35,897 bases of DNA from Aquipuribacter hungaricus (GTDB lineage: Bacteria > Actinomycetota > Actinomycetes > Actinomycetales > JBBAYJ01): positions 1 to 35,897 of the forward strand of contig NZ_JBBEOI010000014.1 in NCBI RefSeq assembly GCF_037860755.1. Reading direction: 5' to 3'. The notes below the pieces were generated by a model. That model had not been told where the DNA came from. It saw only the letters and a program-made list of their open reading frames with translations, and did not search any database. Position 1 is the stretch's first letter; each line of letters starts with the position of its first letter. The translations under genes and the position numbers were made by a program. Of the stretch, positions 3,449-28,937 are shown one piece after another.

Positions 3449-3520
3449 ATGCCCCACCGGCCCAGCGCCCACCACAGCGCCCCGCCCCCTGTCCCCACCC
3501 TCCCCGGGAGCCCCGCATGA
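3449..3520 (+). CDS. 23-residue proline/histidine-rich leader peptide upstream of cstA
   Basis: Short ORF in the cstA leader, beginning MPHRPSAHHS and containing APPPVPTLPG. It has a better Shine-Dalgarno (GAAGGAG, 3435-3441, eight bases before ATG 3449) than most genes in the window. Its TGA (3518-3520) overlaps the cstA ATG (3517-3519) as ATGA, so cstA translation is probably coupled to it. The PPP run is a known class of ribosome-slowing motif (relieved by EF-P), so it could act as a translational attenuator sensing proline or ribosome state; this is inference. The alternative is a non-coding leader in which the frame is chance, but the strong SD plus exact overlap argue against that. Confidence 0.5.
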   Translation: MPHRPSAHHSAPPPVPTLPGSPA

Positions 3521-18274: not shown

Positions 18275-19777
18275 TCAGTGGTCCGACCGGCCCCCGCCGG
18301 TGCCGGCGTCCCCGCGGGCGGCGGCGTCCCCGCGGGGCGTCCCCGCCACCGGGTGCGCGAGGTCGGCGGGCGTGAACCTCCCGCTGCGGAGGTGGCCCTC
18401 GATCTGCTCGAGGCTGCGGCCGGTCAGCTCGGGCATCTTCCGGTAGAGGAAGACGAAGGCGGCCACGTTGAACGCCGCGTACAGCCAGAACGTCTGCCCC
18501 GTCCCGATCGTGTTGATGATGGTGAGCAGGGTCAGCGTGATGAGCAGGTTCGTGCCCCACAGCGAGGCGGACTGGGCTGCGGCACCCGCGGCCCGGGTGG
18601 CCAGCGGGTAGATCTCCGAGCCGGTGAGCCAGCCCATCAGCTGGATGCCGCCCGCGGTGAACGCCATGAAGACCACGAGCGTCGCGACGATCCACGGCAC
18701 CATCTCCGGGCCGTCGTTGCCGGTGACGAAGAACGTGCCCAGCACGAGGAGCGCCAGCGCCGCCCCCGGCAGGGTGAGCAGGGTCAGACGGCGACGGCCG
18801 ACCTTGTCGATGATGGCCAGCCCGATGAGCTGGGTGACCAGGTAGGTGACGCCGAGGGCGACGGACACCCGCAGGGCGGCGGAGTCCGAGAAGCCGTTGT
18901 CGGTGAGGATCGTCGGCGAGTAGTAGATGATCATCTCGATCCCCGACAGCTGGGTGAAGACCGCCAGGCCGCAGCCGACGACGAGCGCGGGACGCACCCA
19001 GCCCTCGCGCAGCCCCCGCCAGCCGCGGGTGGTCTCCTGCTCCTCCGCCCGGACCGCCTCGCGCACCTCGTCCAGCTCGGGACCCACGTCGGAGCCCTGC
19101 GAGCGCACCCGCTCCAGGGCGGCACGGGCGCCGTCGTCGTCACCACGTGCCGCGAGCCACCGGGGGCTCTCCGGCAGCCGGAGCATGAGCACGAGCATGA
19201 TGGCGGCGGGGACCGAGGCCGCACCGACGGCCACCCGCCAGTCGACCACCTCTGCCGCCCCGACCACGGTGGAGATGACGATGCCGACGCCGATCGCCAC
19301 CTGGAAGAACAGGACCAGGCGGCCGCGGAACTTCGTCGGGGCCAGCTCGGCGACGTAGATGGGCGCGGTCTGCGTGGCCCCGCCGACGGCGAAGCCGAGC
19401 ACCAGGCGGCCGAGGACGAGCATGAGCGGGTTCGGCGCCAGCGCCGCCCACAGCGCCCCGACGACGAACACGACGGCGACCAGCACCAGGGTCGTGCGCC
19501 GCCCCCGCGTCTCCGACAGCCGGCTGCAGGTCAGCGCGCCGACCACCGCGCCGAGCAGGATGGACGCCGCGATCACCTGCTGCATGCCGTCGCCCACGCC
19601 GAAGTCGTCGGTGATCTGCAGCAGGGCCCCGGAGATGATCCCGGTGTCGTAGCCGTACAGCAGCCCCGAGATCGCCGACACCAGGGCGACCACGACCACC
19701 GACCCGGTCAGCCGCCCGCCGTCGTCCCCGCTGCCGCCGTGGTCCACGCCCTGCTCCGTCGCGCGCGCTGGCTCCAT
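18275..19777 (-). CDS. Sugar porter family MFS transporter
   Basis: 500 residues with about 12 membrane helices. Sugar-porter signatures are clear: LLYGYDTGIISGALLQI (helix 1), SETRGRRTTLVLVAV (loop 2-3), APTKFRGRLV, PESPRWLAARG before the central loop, KVGRRRLTLLTLPG (loop 8-9) and YRKMPELTGRSLEQIE at the end of helix 12. These predict proton-coupled import of a monosaccharide or polyol across the cytoplasmic membrane. The last ~40 residues are an Asp/Arg/Ala-rich disordered tail. ATG 19777 has a purine-rich GGAGGGGCAGG stretch upstream. No sugar-catabolic genes are beside it, so the substrate is open. Confidence 0.92.
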   Translation of the reverse strand: MEPARATEQGVDHGGSGDDGGRLTGSVVVVALVSAISGLLYGYDTGIISGALLQITDDFGVGDGMQQVIAASILLGAVVGALTCSRLSETRGRRTTLVLVAVVFVVGALWAALAPNPLMLVLGRLVLGFAVGGATQTAPIYVAELAPTKFRGRLVLFFQVAIGVGIVISTVVGAAEVVDWRVAVGAASVPAAIMLVLMLRLPESPRWLAARGDDDGARAALERVRSQGSDVGPELDEVREAVRAEEQETTRGWRGLREGWVRPALVVGCGLAVFTQLSGIEMIIYYSPTILTDNGFSDSAALRVSVALGVTYLVTQLIGLAIIDKVGRRRLTLLTLPGAALALLVLGTFFVTGNDGPEMVPWIVATLVVFMAFTAGGIQLMGWLTGSEIYPLATRAAGAAAQSASLWGTNLLITLTLLTIINTIGTGQTFWLYAAFNVAAFVFLYRKMPELTGRSLEQIEGHLRSGRFTPADLAHPVAGTPRGDAAARGDAGTGGGRSDH

Positions 19778-19879
19778 GACCCCTGCACCTGCCCCTCCGG
19801 GTGACCCCCGGCCCCCGAGGTGCGTCAGAGGCTAGGGACGCCCCACCGAGCGCGCCACCGGCCGCGGCGGGCGGAGGGC

Positions 19880-19917
19880 TTGACCCTGACGCTGCGTCAG
19901 GGCCGGACGCTGGCGCC
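19880..19917 (+). promoter_or_regulatory. MerR-type operator/promoter of the drrAB operon
   Basis: A perfect 19-base palindrome, CCCTGACGC-T-GCGTCAGGG (19884-19902), overlaps a consensus -35, TTGACC (19880-19885). A -10-like GACGCT at 19906-19911 leaves a spacer of 20 bases, the over-long spacing MerR activators correct by twisting DNA. Six bases later is the drrA ATG. A MerR gene is the third gene of this operon (21587), so a feedback loop is likely. Confidence 0.65.
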
Positions 19918-20706
19918 ATGACCACGACACCCGCACTGCAGACCGTGGGGCTGACGAAGTCCTACGGCGACCACGCCGTGCTCCGGGGGGTGGACCTCAC
20001 CGTCCCCCGGGGCAGCGTCCAGGCCCTCCTGGGGTCCAACGGCGCCGGCAAGACCACCACGGTGAAGATCCTGGCCACCCTGCTCAGGGCCGACGGCGGG
20101 ACCGCCACCGTCGCCGGCCACGACGTGGCCACCGACCCGGCCGGCGTGAGGAGGGCCATCAGCCTCACCGGGCAGTTCGCCGCCGTCGACGACGTCCTGA
20201 CCGGTCGCGAGAACCTCCTCCTCGTCGCCGCGCTCAGGCGCCTGCCCCGACCCCGCGCGGCCGCGGACGACCTGCTGGACCGGTTCGACCTGGCAGACGC
20301 CGCCGGTCGCCGGGCGGCGACGTACTCCGGCGGCATGCGCCGGCGCCTGGACCTCGCCATGAGCCTGGTCGGGGACCCGGCCGTGCTGTTCCTCGACGAG
20401 CCGACGACCGGGCTGGACCCGCAGTCCCGGGCCGAGGTCTGGCGGACCGTCCGGGAGCTGGCGGGGCGGGGCACGACGGTCCTGCTCACCACGCAGCACC
20501 TGGAGGAGGCCGAGCACCTGGCCGACCGGGTCGCCATCCTCCACGAGGGGCGCGTCATCGCCGACGGGACGGTCGCCGAGCTCCGGCGGCTGCTGCCGCC
20601 GGCCCGGGTCGAGCTCGTCGAGAAGCAGCCGAGCCTGGAGGACGTGTTCCTCGCGGTCGTCGGCGACGGCCCCACCGCACGCGACCAGGACGGGGACCGA
20701 CGATGA
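19918..20706 (+). CDS. ABC exporter ATP-binding protein, DrrA type
   Basis: 262 residues. Walker A GSNGAGKTT (39-47), Q-loop TGQFAAVDD (84-92), signature YSGGM (136-140), Walker B VLFLDEPTTGLD (156-167) and H-loop TTQHLEEAEHLADR. The TGQFAAVD and C-terminal SLEDVFLAVVG pieces are typical of the daunorubicin-resistance (DrrA/CcmA) group that powers drug, lipid or polysaccharide export. ATG 19918 has no Shine-Dalgarno and lies where transcription from the MerR-type promoter should begin, hence a leaderless mRNA. Overlaps the permease gene by four bases (ATGA). A drug-efflux role is inferred from family and MerR control. Confidence 0.92.
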   Translation: MTTTPALQTVGLTKSYGDHAVLRGVDLTVPRGSVQALLGSNGAGKTTTVKILATLLRADGGTATVAGHDVATDPAGVRRAISLTGQFAAVDDVLTGRENLLLVAALRRLPRPRAAADDLLDRFDLADAAGRRAATYSGGMRRRLDLAMSLVGDPAVLFLDEPTTGLDPQSRAEVWRTVRELAGRGTTVLLTTQHLEEAEHLADRVAILHEGRVIADGTVAELRRLLPPARVELVEKQPSLEDVFLAVVGDGPTARDQDGDRR

Positions 20707-21464
20707 CCACGGCCGTCCTCCACGACACCCGGACCATGCTCGGGCGGTGCCTGCGTCACGTCGTGCGCAGCCCCGACACGATCATCACGACGGCCGTGAC
20801 GCCGGTGGCGATGCTCCTGCTGTTCGTCTACGTCTTCGGCGGCGCGATCGACGCGGGGGGCGAGGACTACGTCGGCTACCTGCTGCCGGGGGTCCTCCTG
20901 GTGACGATCGCCTCGAGCGTCGCCTACACCGCCTTCCGGCTGTACACCGACGTCTCGGGCGGGCTCTTCGAGCGGTTCCGCTCCATGCCCGTCGCCCGCC
21001 AGGCCCTGCTGTGGGGCCACGTCCTGACCTCCGTCGTGGCCACGCTCGTGTCCCTCGCGCTGGTCGTCGTCGTCGCGCTCGTCATGGGCTTCCGGTCCGG
21101 GGCGGGGCCGCTGGCGTGGCTGGCCGTGCTCGGCATCCTCGTGCTCCTCACCCTGGCCCTGACCTGGCTCGCGGTGGTGCCCGGGCTGACGGCGCGCTCC
21201 GTGGACGGCGTCAGCGGGTTCTCCTACCCGCTGGTGTTCCTGCCGTTCGTCAGCTCCGCCTTCGTGCCGACCGACGGCATGCCCGCCCCGGTGCGCTGGT
21301 TCGCCGAGAACCAGCCCGTCACGGCCATCGTCGACACCGTCCGGAGCCTCCTCGCCGAGCAGCCCGTCGGGGGCCAGGGCTGGCTCGCCGTCGCGTGGTG
21401 CCTAGGTCTGCTGCTCGTCGCCTACCTGCTCGCCCTGGCCACCTACCGCCGCACGACCGGGTAG
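20703..21464 (+). CDS. ABC-2 type exporter permease, DrrB type
   Basis: 253 residues with six hydrophobic segments, beginning near TIITTAVTPVAMLLLFVYVF. The ABC-2 features are present: GEDYVGYLLPGVLLVTIASS, the coupling region GGLFERFRSMPVARQALLWG between helices 2 and 3, and the C-terminal FAENQPVTAIVDTVRSLL motif followed by the last helix. Partner of the ATPase encoded by the overlapping gene; the pair probably assembles as a dimer of each. Predicted export of a hydrophobic compound that is also the MerR inducer. The stop at 21464 is followed by 66 bases and then a leader ORF for merR. Confidence 0.92.
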   Translation: MTTAVLHDTRTMLGRCLRHVVRSPDTIITTAVTPVAMLLLFVYVFGGAIDAGGEDYVGYLLPGVLLVTIASSVAYTAFRLYTDVSGGLFERFRSMPVARQALLWGHVLTSVVATLVSLALVVVVALVMGFRSGAGPLAWLAVLGILVLLTLALTWLAVVPGLTARSVDGVSGFSYPLVFLPFVSSAFVPTDGMPAPVRWFAENQPVTAIVDTVRSLLAEQPVGGQGWLAVAWCLGLLLVAYLLALATYRRTTG

Positions 21465-21530
21465 AGCAGCATCGGCCGACGACCGACCATGCGACGACCC
21501 GCCGCCGCCGGCGCGGAGGAGGAGCACGAC

Positions 21531-21593
21531 ATGCAGGCACCCGACGTCGGGGACGGGACGGACGCCGCGGTCCGGGGGGCCGTGCGGTGCTGA
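21531..21593 (+). CDS. 20-residue leader ORF overlapping the merR start
   Basis: Begins MQAPDVGDGT and ends AVRGAVRC. Preceded by GGAGGAGGAG (21515-21524), the strongest Shine-Dalgarno in the window, six bases before ATG 21531. Its TGA (21591-21593) lies inside merR, overlapping the merR GTG (21587) by seven bases in another frame, so ribosomes ending here could restart on merR, whose own site is only a G run (21574-21579). An in-frame ATG at 21489 would give 34 residues. The composition shows no amino-acid run typical of attenuators. Probably a translational coupler; no function is known. Confidence 0.45.
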   Translation: MQAPDVGDGTDAAVRGAVRC

Positions 21594-22444
21594 CCATCGG
21601 GCAGCTGGCGGCCTACGCCGGCGTGACGGTCCGGACCGTGCGGCACTACCACGCCACGGGCCTGCTGCCCGAGCCCGAGAGGGACGCGTCGGGCTACCGG
21701 CGCTACGACGCCACGGCCGTGGTCGACCTGGTCAAGGTCCGCACCCTGGCCGAGGCCGGCGTCCCGCTGTCCCGGGTGCAGCAGCTGCTGGCCGCCGACG
21801 AGGAAGAGTTCGCGGCGGCGGTGCAGGAGATCGACCGGAGACTGCGCGCCGGCATCCGCGACCTCCAGCGCCACCGCAGCCGCATCGCGCAGCTGGCGGC
21901 CGGCGACAGCCTCGCGCTGCCGCCCGAGGCGGTCGCCTACCTGGACCGGATGCGCGAGCTCGGGTTCCGGGAGCGGATGGTCGAGGTGGAGCGCGACAGC
22001 TGGATCCTCATCGCGGCGCGGATGCCGGAGCAGGTCCCGGCGTTCATGGCCATGAAGCACGCGACCCTGGAGAACGAGACGCTGCGCCGCCTCTACCTGG
22101 CGATGGGCGAGCTCGCCGACTGCGGCCCCGACGACCCCCGGCTGCCCGCGCTGGCCGACAACGTCGCGGCGTTCCTCGAGGCCGAGACCGCGGCCGCCGA
22201 GGCCGCCCTCGCCGTCACGGGGACCGACCCTCGGACCGAGGAGCCGTCGGTCAGCGCGGACCTCGTCGCCCTGCTCGACGGCGCGTTCGTCGAGTCCTTC
22301 CCCTGCGCGCCGCGGCTGCTGCGCCTGCTGGAGGAGCGCGGCTGGACGGGGTGGACCGACGTCAGGCGGACAGAGGTCGCCTCCTCCGTCGGCGAGGGCC
22401 GCACCGAGGGCGTCGGCTCCCAGGGCACGCTCACCGTCCGCTGA
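21587..22444 (+). CDS. MerR family transcriptional regulator of the drr operon
   Basis: 285 residues. N-terminal MerR DNA-binding domain: LTIGQLAAYAGVTVRTVRHY with HATGLLPEPERD, SGYRRYDATAVVDLVKVRTL, AEAGVPLSRVQQLLAADEEE, then a dimerisation helix. The ~165-residue C-terminal part is helical and contains MRELGFRERMVEVERDSW and several acidic helices; I do not recognise it as a GyrI or TipAS domain, so ligand unknown. Third gene of drrAB-merR. The perfect palindrome 5' of drrA is the expected binding site, giving an autoregulated efflux module that could be switched on by the exported compound. GTG 21587 is the first start matching the family N-terminus. Confidence 0.9.
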   Translation: MLTIGQLAAYAGVTVRTVRHYHATGLLPEPERDASGYRRYDATAVVDLVKVRTLAEAGVPLSRVQQLLAADEEEFAAAVQEIDRRLRAGIRDLQRHRSRIAQLAAGDSLALPPEAVAYLDRMRELGFRERMVEVERDSWILIAARMPEQVPAFMAMKHATLENETLRRLYLAMGELADCGPDDPRLPALADNVAAFLEAETAAAEAALAVTGTDPRTEEPSVSADLVALLDGAFVESFPCAPRLLRLLEERGWTGWTDVRRTEVASSVGEGRTEGVGSQGTLTVR

Positions 22445-22471
22445 CCCGGGCCTGTGTGCTGGGATCACCGC

Positions 22472-23497
22472 ATGAGCCCTGACGCTGACCTGGCCGACCG
22501 GGTGCGGGACGCCGCCCAGCGGGAGGCGCGTCGGCACGACGGGCTCGTGGTGGCCGCGGTCGCCGGTGGGCGCACCGCCGTCCACGGCGCGGGGCGGGGC
22601 GCCGCGGCCGCGCCGGACGGGAGCACCCTGTTCCAGGTCGGGTCGGTCACCAAGGTGTTCACCACCCTCGCCCTCGCGGCGGCGGTGACCCGCGGCGAGC
22701 TGTCGCTCGACACCCCCGTGGACGACCTGCTCCCCGCGCTGCCCACGCCGGCTCCCCGGCCGCCGATCACCCTGGCGCAGCTCGCCTCCCACTCCTCGGG
22801 CCTGCCGCGCCTGCCCCCCGGGGTGCTGCTGCGCGGCCTGCGCCAGCGCTCGGACCCCTACCGCGGCCTCGGCCCCGAGGACCTGCTCGCCGCCTACGCC
22901 AGGGCCCGGCCCAGCGCCCGCCCGGGACGGCGGGTGACCTACTCCAACTTCGGCGTCGCCCTGCTCGGGGCTGCCCTGGCCCGGCACGCGGGCACCTCGT
23001 GGGAGCAGCTGGTCGCCGACGAGGTCACCGGTCCGCTCGGGCTGCGTGACACCGTGCCCGCCGTGCGCCCGGACCAGCAGGACCGCCGGGCCGCCGGGCA
23101 CTCGCGCCGTGGCCGACCGGTGCCGGACTGGGACCTGGCCGCGGTCGCGCCCGCCGGCGGCCTGTGGTCGAGCGCGGACGACGTGCTCGCCTTCGTCCGC
23201 GCCCACCTCGTCCCCCAGGAAGGCCCGCTGTCCGGTGCCCTGCGGCTGGTGCAGGAGCCGCAGGCACGCGCCAACCGGTGGCTGCAGGTCTGCTCCGGCT
23301 GGATGCTCACCCCGCTGCGGGGGTCCGACCACCCCGTCTGGTGGCACAACGGGGGCACCGGCGGATTCGCGTCGTTCGTCGGCTTCCAGCCGGACCTGGG
23401 GACCGGGGTCGTCGTCCTGAGCTCCACCGCACGCTCGGTGGACCGGGCCGGCATGTCGTTGCTGACCGAGCTCGTCAACACTGCCGAGGCCGGCTGA
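22472..23497 (+). CDS. Serine hydrolase, class C beta-lactamase/DD-peptidase family
   Basis: 341 residues from ATG 22472. The three active-site elements are seen: SxxK in FQVGSVTKVFTTLA (Ser about 61), YxN as VTYSNFGVALLG and the HxG-type motif WWHNGGTGGFASF. The surrounding LDTPVDDLLP and LASHSSGLPRLP blocks are typical of this family (beta-lactamase-related, esterase EstB, D-aminopeptidases). There is no signal peptide, so a cytoplasmic esterase or peptidase role is more likely than antibiotic resistance. It begins 27 bases after merR and may be in the same operon; TGGGAT ending six bases before the ATG is a weak leaderless hexamer. Confidence 0.88.
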   Translation: MSPDADLADRVRDAAQREARRHDGLVVAAVAGGRTAVHGAGRGAAAAPDGSTLFQVGSVTKVFTTLALAAAVTRGELSLDTPVDDLLPALPTPAPRPPITLAQLASHSSGLPRLPPGVLLRGLRQRSDPYRGLGPEDLLAAYARARPSARPGRRVTYSNFGVALLGAALARHAGTSWEQLVADEVTGPLGLRDTVPAVRPDQQDRRAAGHSRRGRPVPDWDLAAVAPAGGLWSSADDVLAFVRAHLVPQEGPLSGALRLVQEPQARANRWLQVCSGWMLTPLRGSDHPVWWHNGGTGGFASFVGFQPDLGTGVVVLSSTARSVDRAGMSLLTELVNTAEAG

Positions 23498-28112: not shown

Positions 28113-28937
28113 GTGCTGGCGATCGGCGAGTTCTCCCGGGTGACCCACCTGAGCGTGCGCACGCTGCGCCGCTACCACGACGCGGGGCTGCTGGAGCCGG
28201 AGGCGGTCGATCCCGTCAGCGGCTACCGCTCCTACGGCACGCACCAGATCCCGGCAGCCCAGGTCATCCACCGCCTGCGCGAGCTCGACGTGCCGCTGGC
28301 CGACGTCCGCCGGATCATGGGCTGCCCGGACCCGGGCGACCGCGCGGGGCTGGTCCAGGAGCACCTGCGGCGGCTGGAGACCGAGCTGGAGCGCACCCGG
28401 GCGGCGGTCGCCTCGCTGCGCCGGCTGCTGGACCCCGCCCCGCCGCCCCTGGACGTCCGGCTGCGCACGGTGCCGGCCACCCTCGTCGCCGCGGTGCAGG
28501 ACGACGGGGCGCTCGAGGACGTCCTCGGCTGGTACGCCGGCGCCACGGCGGAGCTGGACGCCGTGGTGGCAGACCCGGTCGGACCCCCGGGCGGGCTGTA
28601 CGACGACGAGCTCTTCACCCTCGGCCGCGGGCACGTGCTCGTCTACCGCGAGACGCCCCGACCTCCCCGCAGCGGCCGCGTGCACCCGGTGACCCTGCCC
28701 GCCGTCGAGCTCGCGGTCACCACGCACCACGGCGACCACGACGACATCGACGTCACCTACGGCGAGCTCGGCGCATGGGTGACGGCGGACGCGCTCGCCG
28801 TGGCCGGACCGGTGCGCGAGCGGTACCTGGTCGGCCCGCGCGACACCGCCGACCCCTCGGCCTGGCGCACCGAGATCGGCTGGCCCGTGTTCCGGCTGTC
28901 CCCGGGGGACGTGCCCGGTCCGGCCGCGGGCAGCTGA
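28113..28937 (+). CDS. MerR family regulator with GyrI-like effector domain
   Basis: 274 residues. MerR domain: AIGEFSRVTHLSVRTLRRYH with DAGLLEPEAVD, SGYRSYGTHQIPAAQVIHRL, RELDVPLADVRRIMGCPDPG, then the dimer helix. From about residue 130, a beta-rich domain (LRTVPATLVAAVQDDGALED, GRVHPVTLPAVELAVTTHHG) and the DVTYGELGAWV core identify a GyrI-like small-molecule-binding domain, as in BltR/BmrR and other multidrug sensors. GTG 28113 chosen: CACAGT ends six bases before, and an alternative GTG at 28098 lies within the operator. It probably controls itself and the divergent SnoaL gene in response to a hydrophobic ligand. Confidence 0.9.
   Translation: MLAIGEFSRVTHLSVRTLRRYHDAGLLEPEAVDPVSGYRSYGTHQIPAAQVIHRLRELDVPLADVRRIMGCPDPGDRAGLVQEHLRRLETELERTRAAVASLRRLLDPAPPPLDVRLRTVPATLVAAVQDDGALEDVLGWYAGATAELDAVVADPVGPPGGLYDDELFTLGRGHVLVYRETPRPPRSGRVHPVTLPAVELAVTTHHGDHDDIDVTYGELGAWVTADALAVAGPVRERYLVGPRDTADPSAWRTEIGWPVFRLSPGDVPGPAAGS

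Follow-up and report, generated by a model that had tools for sequence, protein, structure and literature searches.

A short leader ORF overlapping the start of merR in a drrAB-merR operon of Aquipuribacter hungaricus may relay ribosomes to the regulator gene

How does a regulator gene at the end of a drrAB-merR operon begin its translation when a short ORF with its own Shine-Dalgarno sequence (SD) runs across its start codon? The question is raised by a 35,897-nt stretch of Aquipuribacter hungaricus DNA (contig NZ_JBBEOI010000014.1, positions 1 to 35,897; hereafter the window), in which the SD run GGAGGAGGAG (21515-21524, + strand), recognised by its sequence and duplex energy, is followed after 6 nt by the ATG of a 20-codon leader ORF (21531-21593, + strand). 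Its sense codons are MQAPDVGDGTDAAVRGAVRC, and its TGA (21591-21593) ends seven bases into merR, within the GTGCTGA that forms the first bases of that gene, giving a 7-nt overlap. All of these elements, first described in a first-pass annotation of the window, were confirmed in the sequence. The same annotation had called this the strongest SD in the window, which is not the case: with a 16S-tail duplex of -10.1 kcal/mol it comes 37th when the 1,895 start-codon contexts of both strands are ranked, and among 305 genes called in a sample of this genome 8.2% equal or beat it. The genome has a single copy of the pattern GGCTGGATCACCTCCTT, and in the window GGAGG-N8-RTG occurs 3 times against 4.97 expected. 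The leader frame is open right from the drrB stop, and an alternative in-frame ATG at 21489, whose SD is poor (-1.7 kcal/mol), would lengthen the ORF to 34 aa. We considered the leader as drrB readthrough or the remnant of a longer ancestral drrB, given that it lies in the drrB frame, and rejected this, since DrrB of relatives stops at the same place. Elsewhere in the window, a 23-codon SD-led ORF (3449-3520) shares an ATGA overlap with the start, at 3517, of a gene for a CstA-like pyruvate symporter (NCBIfam match below cut-off), and this is probably the other start-overlapping leader ORF of the first-pass annotation.

The merR gene itself (21587-22444, + strand) starts with GTG and encodes a 285-aa MerR-family regulator with Pfam MerR_1 and MerR matches. 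Its start at GTG 21587 is supported, as a start codon stands at the aligned residue in 221 of 227 homologous loci. A G6 run (21574-21579, + strand), 7 nt before the GTG, is a possible SD of merR itself, pairing with the 16S tail at -9.1 kcal/mol, a value matched or exceeded by 16% of the 305 genes. The first-pass annotation had credited merR with only a G run; a G run is indeed all there is, but at this energy it constitutes a usable predicted SD, so that merR is not without an SD-like element. No NANNNT box was found at -12 or -13 of the merR start, which has neither the -10-like box of leaderless genes nor a GGAG-type SD. Checked as a downstream gene lacking a signal of its own, merR therefore gives a divided answer: no box, no GGAG-type SD and a start predicted to be folded, yet a G6 run that pairs appreciably with the 16S tail. 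The window also holds a second MerR-family protein (28116-28800), 38% identical to merR over its N-terminal part.

Upstream of merR lie genes for a drrA-like ABC ATPase (19918-20706, + strand; Pfam ABC_tran, NCBIfam drrA at 289.7 bits, below the cut-off of 312.45) and a drrB-like ABC-2 membrane protein (20703-21464, + strand; Pfam ABC2_membrane, NCBIfam DrrB-family models below cut-off), and a 122-nt drrB-merR spacer (21465-21586, + strand) without the -10-like box. The drrA start was set at ATG 19918 from its promoter distance and from the ATGACCAC of its homologs. In promoters of the MerR type, the -35 and -10 elements stand 19-20 bp apart and the spacer holds a palindrome. The drrA promoter (19880-19917, + strand) has this layout, with TTGACC, a 20-bp spacer and GACGCT (19880-19911), and an operator palindrome, CCCTGACG-CTG-CGTCAGGG, that begins in the last -35 base and extends into the spacer; GACGCT is then followed by six bases to the drrA ATG, a leaderless layout. 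Before drrA, 37 of the 51 homologous loci scanned show, by eye, a variant of the block TTGACCTTGACGCAGNGTCAGGGTTGCACGCT-N6-ATG, L026, L029 and L050 among them; the scan script flagged 38 of the 51, one of them unrelated. The drrAB-merR operon proposed in the first-pass annotation is thus supported by the recurrent MerR-type operator at drrA, by co-directional genes and by the lack of a terminator-like site, none having been found in 19600-22600. No sigma-70-like site was found in the same interval, by a scan that was also blank on shuffles and was confined to that promoter type. Given the MerR-type operator and the leaderless layout at drrA, the operon is probably autoregulated through this operator, to which the regulator would bind.

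Homologs were collected as 51 loci from named genomes and through whole-genome searches, with loci fetched for part of the matches. A match was present in 33 of 396 genomes of the order (E limit 1e-30), in 72 of 394 of the class (E limit 1e-50) and in 12/112, 3/5, 44/186 and 83/341 genomes of four families (E limit 1e-50), these sets overlapping; two genus-mate genomes gave no merR match at E 1e-20. The final set retained 227 of 265 loci, after dropping 34 duplicates, 3 loci with too little upstream DNA and 1 whose match began too late (an earlier set had retained 145 of 160 matched loci), and plasmid homologs (422 records) lay outside the compared set.

A -10-like box 12-13 nt before the start codon is the layout expected of a leaderless transcript in actinobacteria. 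Such a box, starting 12 or 13 nt upstream, accompanies 168 of 221 homologous merR starts; 145 of the 227 loci have NANNNT starting at -12 and 24 have it at -13, with no more than 17 at any other listed offset from -30 to -6. The sister merR genes of the window's own, from two Kineosporia and one related genome, have the leaderless box. These leaderless loci encode a homologous regulator, and many share the drrAB neighbour and the operator, but they differ in having the box 12-13 nt before the start, with no leader needed. At some loci an SD stands in place of the box, for example in several genomes of one family, probably Geodermatophilaceae. The starts with neither box nor SD number 26, and an SD-led mini-ORF lies in the drrB-merR spacer at the window, L026, L029 and L050. 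At the remaining ones an upstream gene abuts merR or nearly so (L102, L116, L220, L221 and L257, by eye), or there are weak SDs or boxes slightly off register. By eye, what looks like the end of a gene other than drrB precedes merR in L017, L019, L020, L031, L036, L042, L220 and L221, in some cases abutting it.

The first-pass annotation had proposed asking whether the leader is conserved in related drrAB-merR operons, and the answer is mixed: similar mini-ORFs occur in three box-less relatives, while peptide and layout are poorly conserved. The three are Motilibacter (L026) and two Blastococcus loci (L029 and L050), all with a long drrB-merR spacer. The leaders of the window, L029 and L050 end at the same TGA, and the L026 stop codon begins 13 nt before merR. 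A listing of spacers, which took in only loci whose upstream frame ends DrrB-like, holds 20 loci with a drrB-like end 45-260 nt upstream, and the spacer reaches at least 80 nt in five. The four of these that lack the box (the window and the three relatives) all have an SD-led mini-ORF, an association that is post hoc, the long-spacer subset having been picked after looking at the data; the fifth, L037, has the box and no mini-ORF. The per-locus chance of a leader in shuffles is 0.021 for the window, 0.018 for L026, 0.152 for L029 and 0.061 for L050.

Alignment of the leader-spacer DNA, with 15 pairs tested and P values uncorrected, links L029 and L050 (0 of 300 shuffles) and L029 and L026 (P 0.01); L026 and the window align weakly, with SD and ATG in register (P 0.04), and the window spacer did not align with those of L029 and L050 beyond chance (P 0.12 and 0.44). 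Shortly downstream of a leader start, L029 and L050 have about 24 nt in common, GTCC.GACC.GGACCGTCGGCGGC. We rejected a conserved leader peptide, as a loosely defined M[RK]..MTG-like motif is present only in L026, L029, L140 and L265, and the window does not fit it. A single origin of the leader was likewise rejected: the four leader loci do not form one clade on the merR tree, and on a tree of 79 merR proteins the leader label calls for 4 changes, the number also required in 500/500 shuffles of that label.

SD-led leaders of any kind were flagged in 13 of the 227 loci, four of the 13 reading as upstream-gene ends, and some precede merR genes that have a box or SD of their own (L020, L064, L076, L238 and L265). 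A flagged leader was present in 5 of 21 neither-signal loci versus 4 of 118 others (Fisher P 0.004, or 0.016 without the window), where shuffles would give 0.7 and 3.2. We give this association little weight, because it counted L042 and L036, which read as parts of the upstream gene; without them the counts are 4/21 versus 3/118, the P values being those of the uncut counts. Among loci fetched after the idea had formed, leaders were flagged at 2 of 5 neither-signal starts versus 2 of 77 others; the two flagged, L220 and L221, are upstream-gene ends by eye, so that new mini-leaders were found at 0 of these 5.

Codon composition is suggestive of translation of the leader. Under a codon table trained on this genome, the score is +3.5 for the leader frame and -11.0 and -7.4 for the other two frames; only 3.9% of open 20-codon intergenic windows score as well (placing the leader above 96%), as do 3.2% of shuffles with the start codon left out. 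For the relatives, the corresponding shuffle fractions are 4.9% for L050 and 5.3% and 3.6% for the two starts of L029, and the L026 leader is not coding-like by this score, 36% of shuffles doing as well. RNA folding predictions distinguish the two starts of the window, with an opening energy of 11.2 kcal/mol at the leader start (equalled or exceeded by 76% of 305 genes) and 19.9 kcal/mol at the merR start (by 14%), and in L026, L029 and L050 the merR start is likewise predicted to be harder to open than the leader start. Among starts with neither box nor SD at 60% or more identity, the leader loci have opening energies of 15.1, 16.5, 19.9 and 20.0 kcal/mol, and 4 of 14 non-leader starts are at or above 15.1 kcal/mol, so that a folded merR start is not peculiar to leader loci. 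A structured RNA element was considered and rejected, 21510-21640 being no stabler than shuffles (z 0.30) and 21300-21800 having no Rfam match.

The reading that we prefer, which we hold tentatively and at a little under an even chance, is that this upstream ORF (uORF) relays ribosomes to merR. Its strongest competitor, quite possible though short of probable in our judgment, is that the leader has arisen by chance in a GC-rich spacer and that merR is translated independently from its G6 run. Several observations fit such an origin, beginning with the pairing of the G6 run with the 16S tail at -9.1 kcal/mol. Strict SD-plus-start sites often lie elsewhere than at gene starts, since of 128 in the sampled sequence 77 are inside called genes but not where these begin, and the first codons of merR, (A/G)TGCTGA, themselves supply a TGA in the leader frame. 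In a sample of the genome, in which gene starts come from our own codon-score gene caller and are rough, a leader ORF precedes 7 of 204 genes with a spacer of at least 45 nt; 3.7 are expected, and a count of 7 is reached in 5 of 100 shuffles, which amounts to mild enrichment at most. Shuffles of the 122-nt spacer yield an SD-led leader ORF in 3.4% of cases (5,000 shuffles), or in 2.1% when the start is confined to the spacer (1,000 shuffles). Against a chance origin stand the presence of such an ORF at each of the four listed long-spacer loci that lack the box, the coding-like composition of the leader frame, and a merR start that is predicted to be strongly folded. The points that count against a relay are the usable G6 SD, the lack of peptide conservation, leaders that do not form a clade, leaders at loci where merR has a signal of its own, the post hoc nature of the association, the lack of a new case among the loci fetched later, the unremarkable RNA stability around the start and the 2-3% shuffle chance. 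A relay of this kind has already been demonstrated elsewhere, and chance remains a strong explanation here.

The other explanations are less probable. If merR were transcribed separately from an unrecognised promoter near its start, the leader and the drrAB messenger would be irrelevant; the promoter-like box at 168 of 221 homologous starts speaks for this, but the window has no NANNNT at -12/-13 and the sigma-70 scan described above (equally blank on shuffles) found no site, and we consider it improbable. Very improbable, in our estimate, is that merR really starts at the SD and ATG at 21515-21533, with the frame broken at the G6 run by a one-base error or mutation, or restored there by -1 ribosomal frameshifting, so that the protein would carry a 19-residue N-terminal extension. 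The two frames are one base apart with the G6 run between them, the assembly is a draft of 547 contigs, and some distant homologs, by reading, begin upstream in frame (16 extra residues in L093, six in L067). Against this, the residue at which merR starts here has a start codon in 221 of 227 loci, the leaders of L029 and L050 are out of frame in the same register in independent assemblies, and only two of 145 loci have an earlier in-frame start with an SD match of at least 5 nt, lying 1 and 3 residues before the aligned one. Leader peptides that control neighbouring genes exist, and this is what would recommend an attenuator or a functional small-peptide gene in place of a ribosome relay; we regard this as hardly credible, as the leader has no single-codon run, 19600-22600 no terminator-like site and 21300-21800 no Rfam match, and the leaders read show no peptide conservation.

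The nearest known system is uPPE2-PPE2 of Mycobacterium tuberculosis, where PPE2 is described as lacking an SD and uPPE2 as an SD-led, out-of-frame short ORF overlapping the PPE2 start (PMC11260477). Removing the SD or start codon of the uORF severely cut reporter expression, to its authors' knowledge the first such demonstration in M. tuberculosis (PMC11260477). The leader-merR arrangement shares with it the SD-led, out-of-frame short ORF overlapping the start of the downstream gene. It differs in that uPPE2-PPE2 has a 4-nt AUGA overlap and sits under a B12 riboswitch (PMC11260477), whereas leader-merR has a 7-nt overlap, no Rfam match, a merR G run and a coupling that is predicted. A review sets out unfolding and reinitiation models of coupling, in which a short upstream ORF may deliver the ribosome, and suggests that delivery by short overlapping ORFs is widespread (PMC12548453). 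Both layout and suggested role correspond to leader-merR, and the unfolding model would suit a structured merR start, which here is predicted. According to a further source, coupling needs overlaps or very short gaps, 4-nt and 1-nt overlaps being common (PMC10666635); the 7-nt overlap satisfies this, yet differs from these common lengths. In a limited literature search, no description of a leader ORF preceding merR in a drrAB operon came up.

A ribosome relay at this locus would proceed as follows. On the drrAB-merR messenger, the SD of the 20-codon ORF would direct its translation, and ribosomes ending at the TGA within GTGCTGA would raise merR initiation; alternatively, ribosomes would do so by unfolding the merR start en route. 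The leader would replace the leaderless promoter-start found at merR in most relatives. What can be read directly from the DNA is the ORF with its SD, the overlap, the missing box, the operator and the similar layout in three relatives. That merR translation depends on the leader, as the first-pass annotation suggested, is plausible. Leader translation, coupling and autoregulation are what we infer from them. As the drrA operator makes the operon the likely target of its own MerR, such a relay would couple the supply of the regulator to transcription of the operon.

The interest of this arrangement is that merR is placed in an operon whose drrA promoter bears a recurrent MerR-type operator. 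One broader scenario, which we consider doubtful, is that, over evolution, the merR start alternates between a leaderless promoter of its own and a mini-ORF relay in an enlarged spacer of the autoregulated operon, the mini-ORFs of the window, Motilibacter and Blastococcus being parallel or distantly homologous cases; if so, the relay mode would make regulator output track operon transcription. Since homologous merR genes are leaderless in many species and preceded by an SD-led leader in a few, the effect of the type of start on the level of the regulator is directly measurable.
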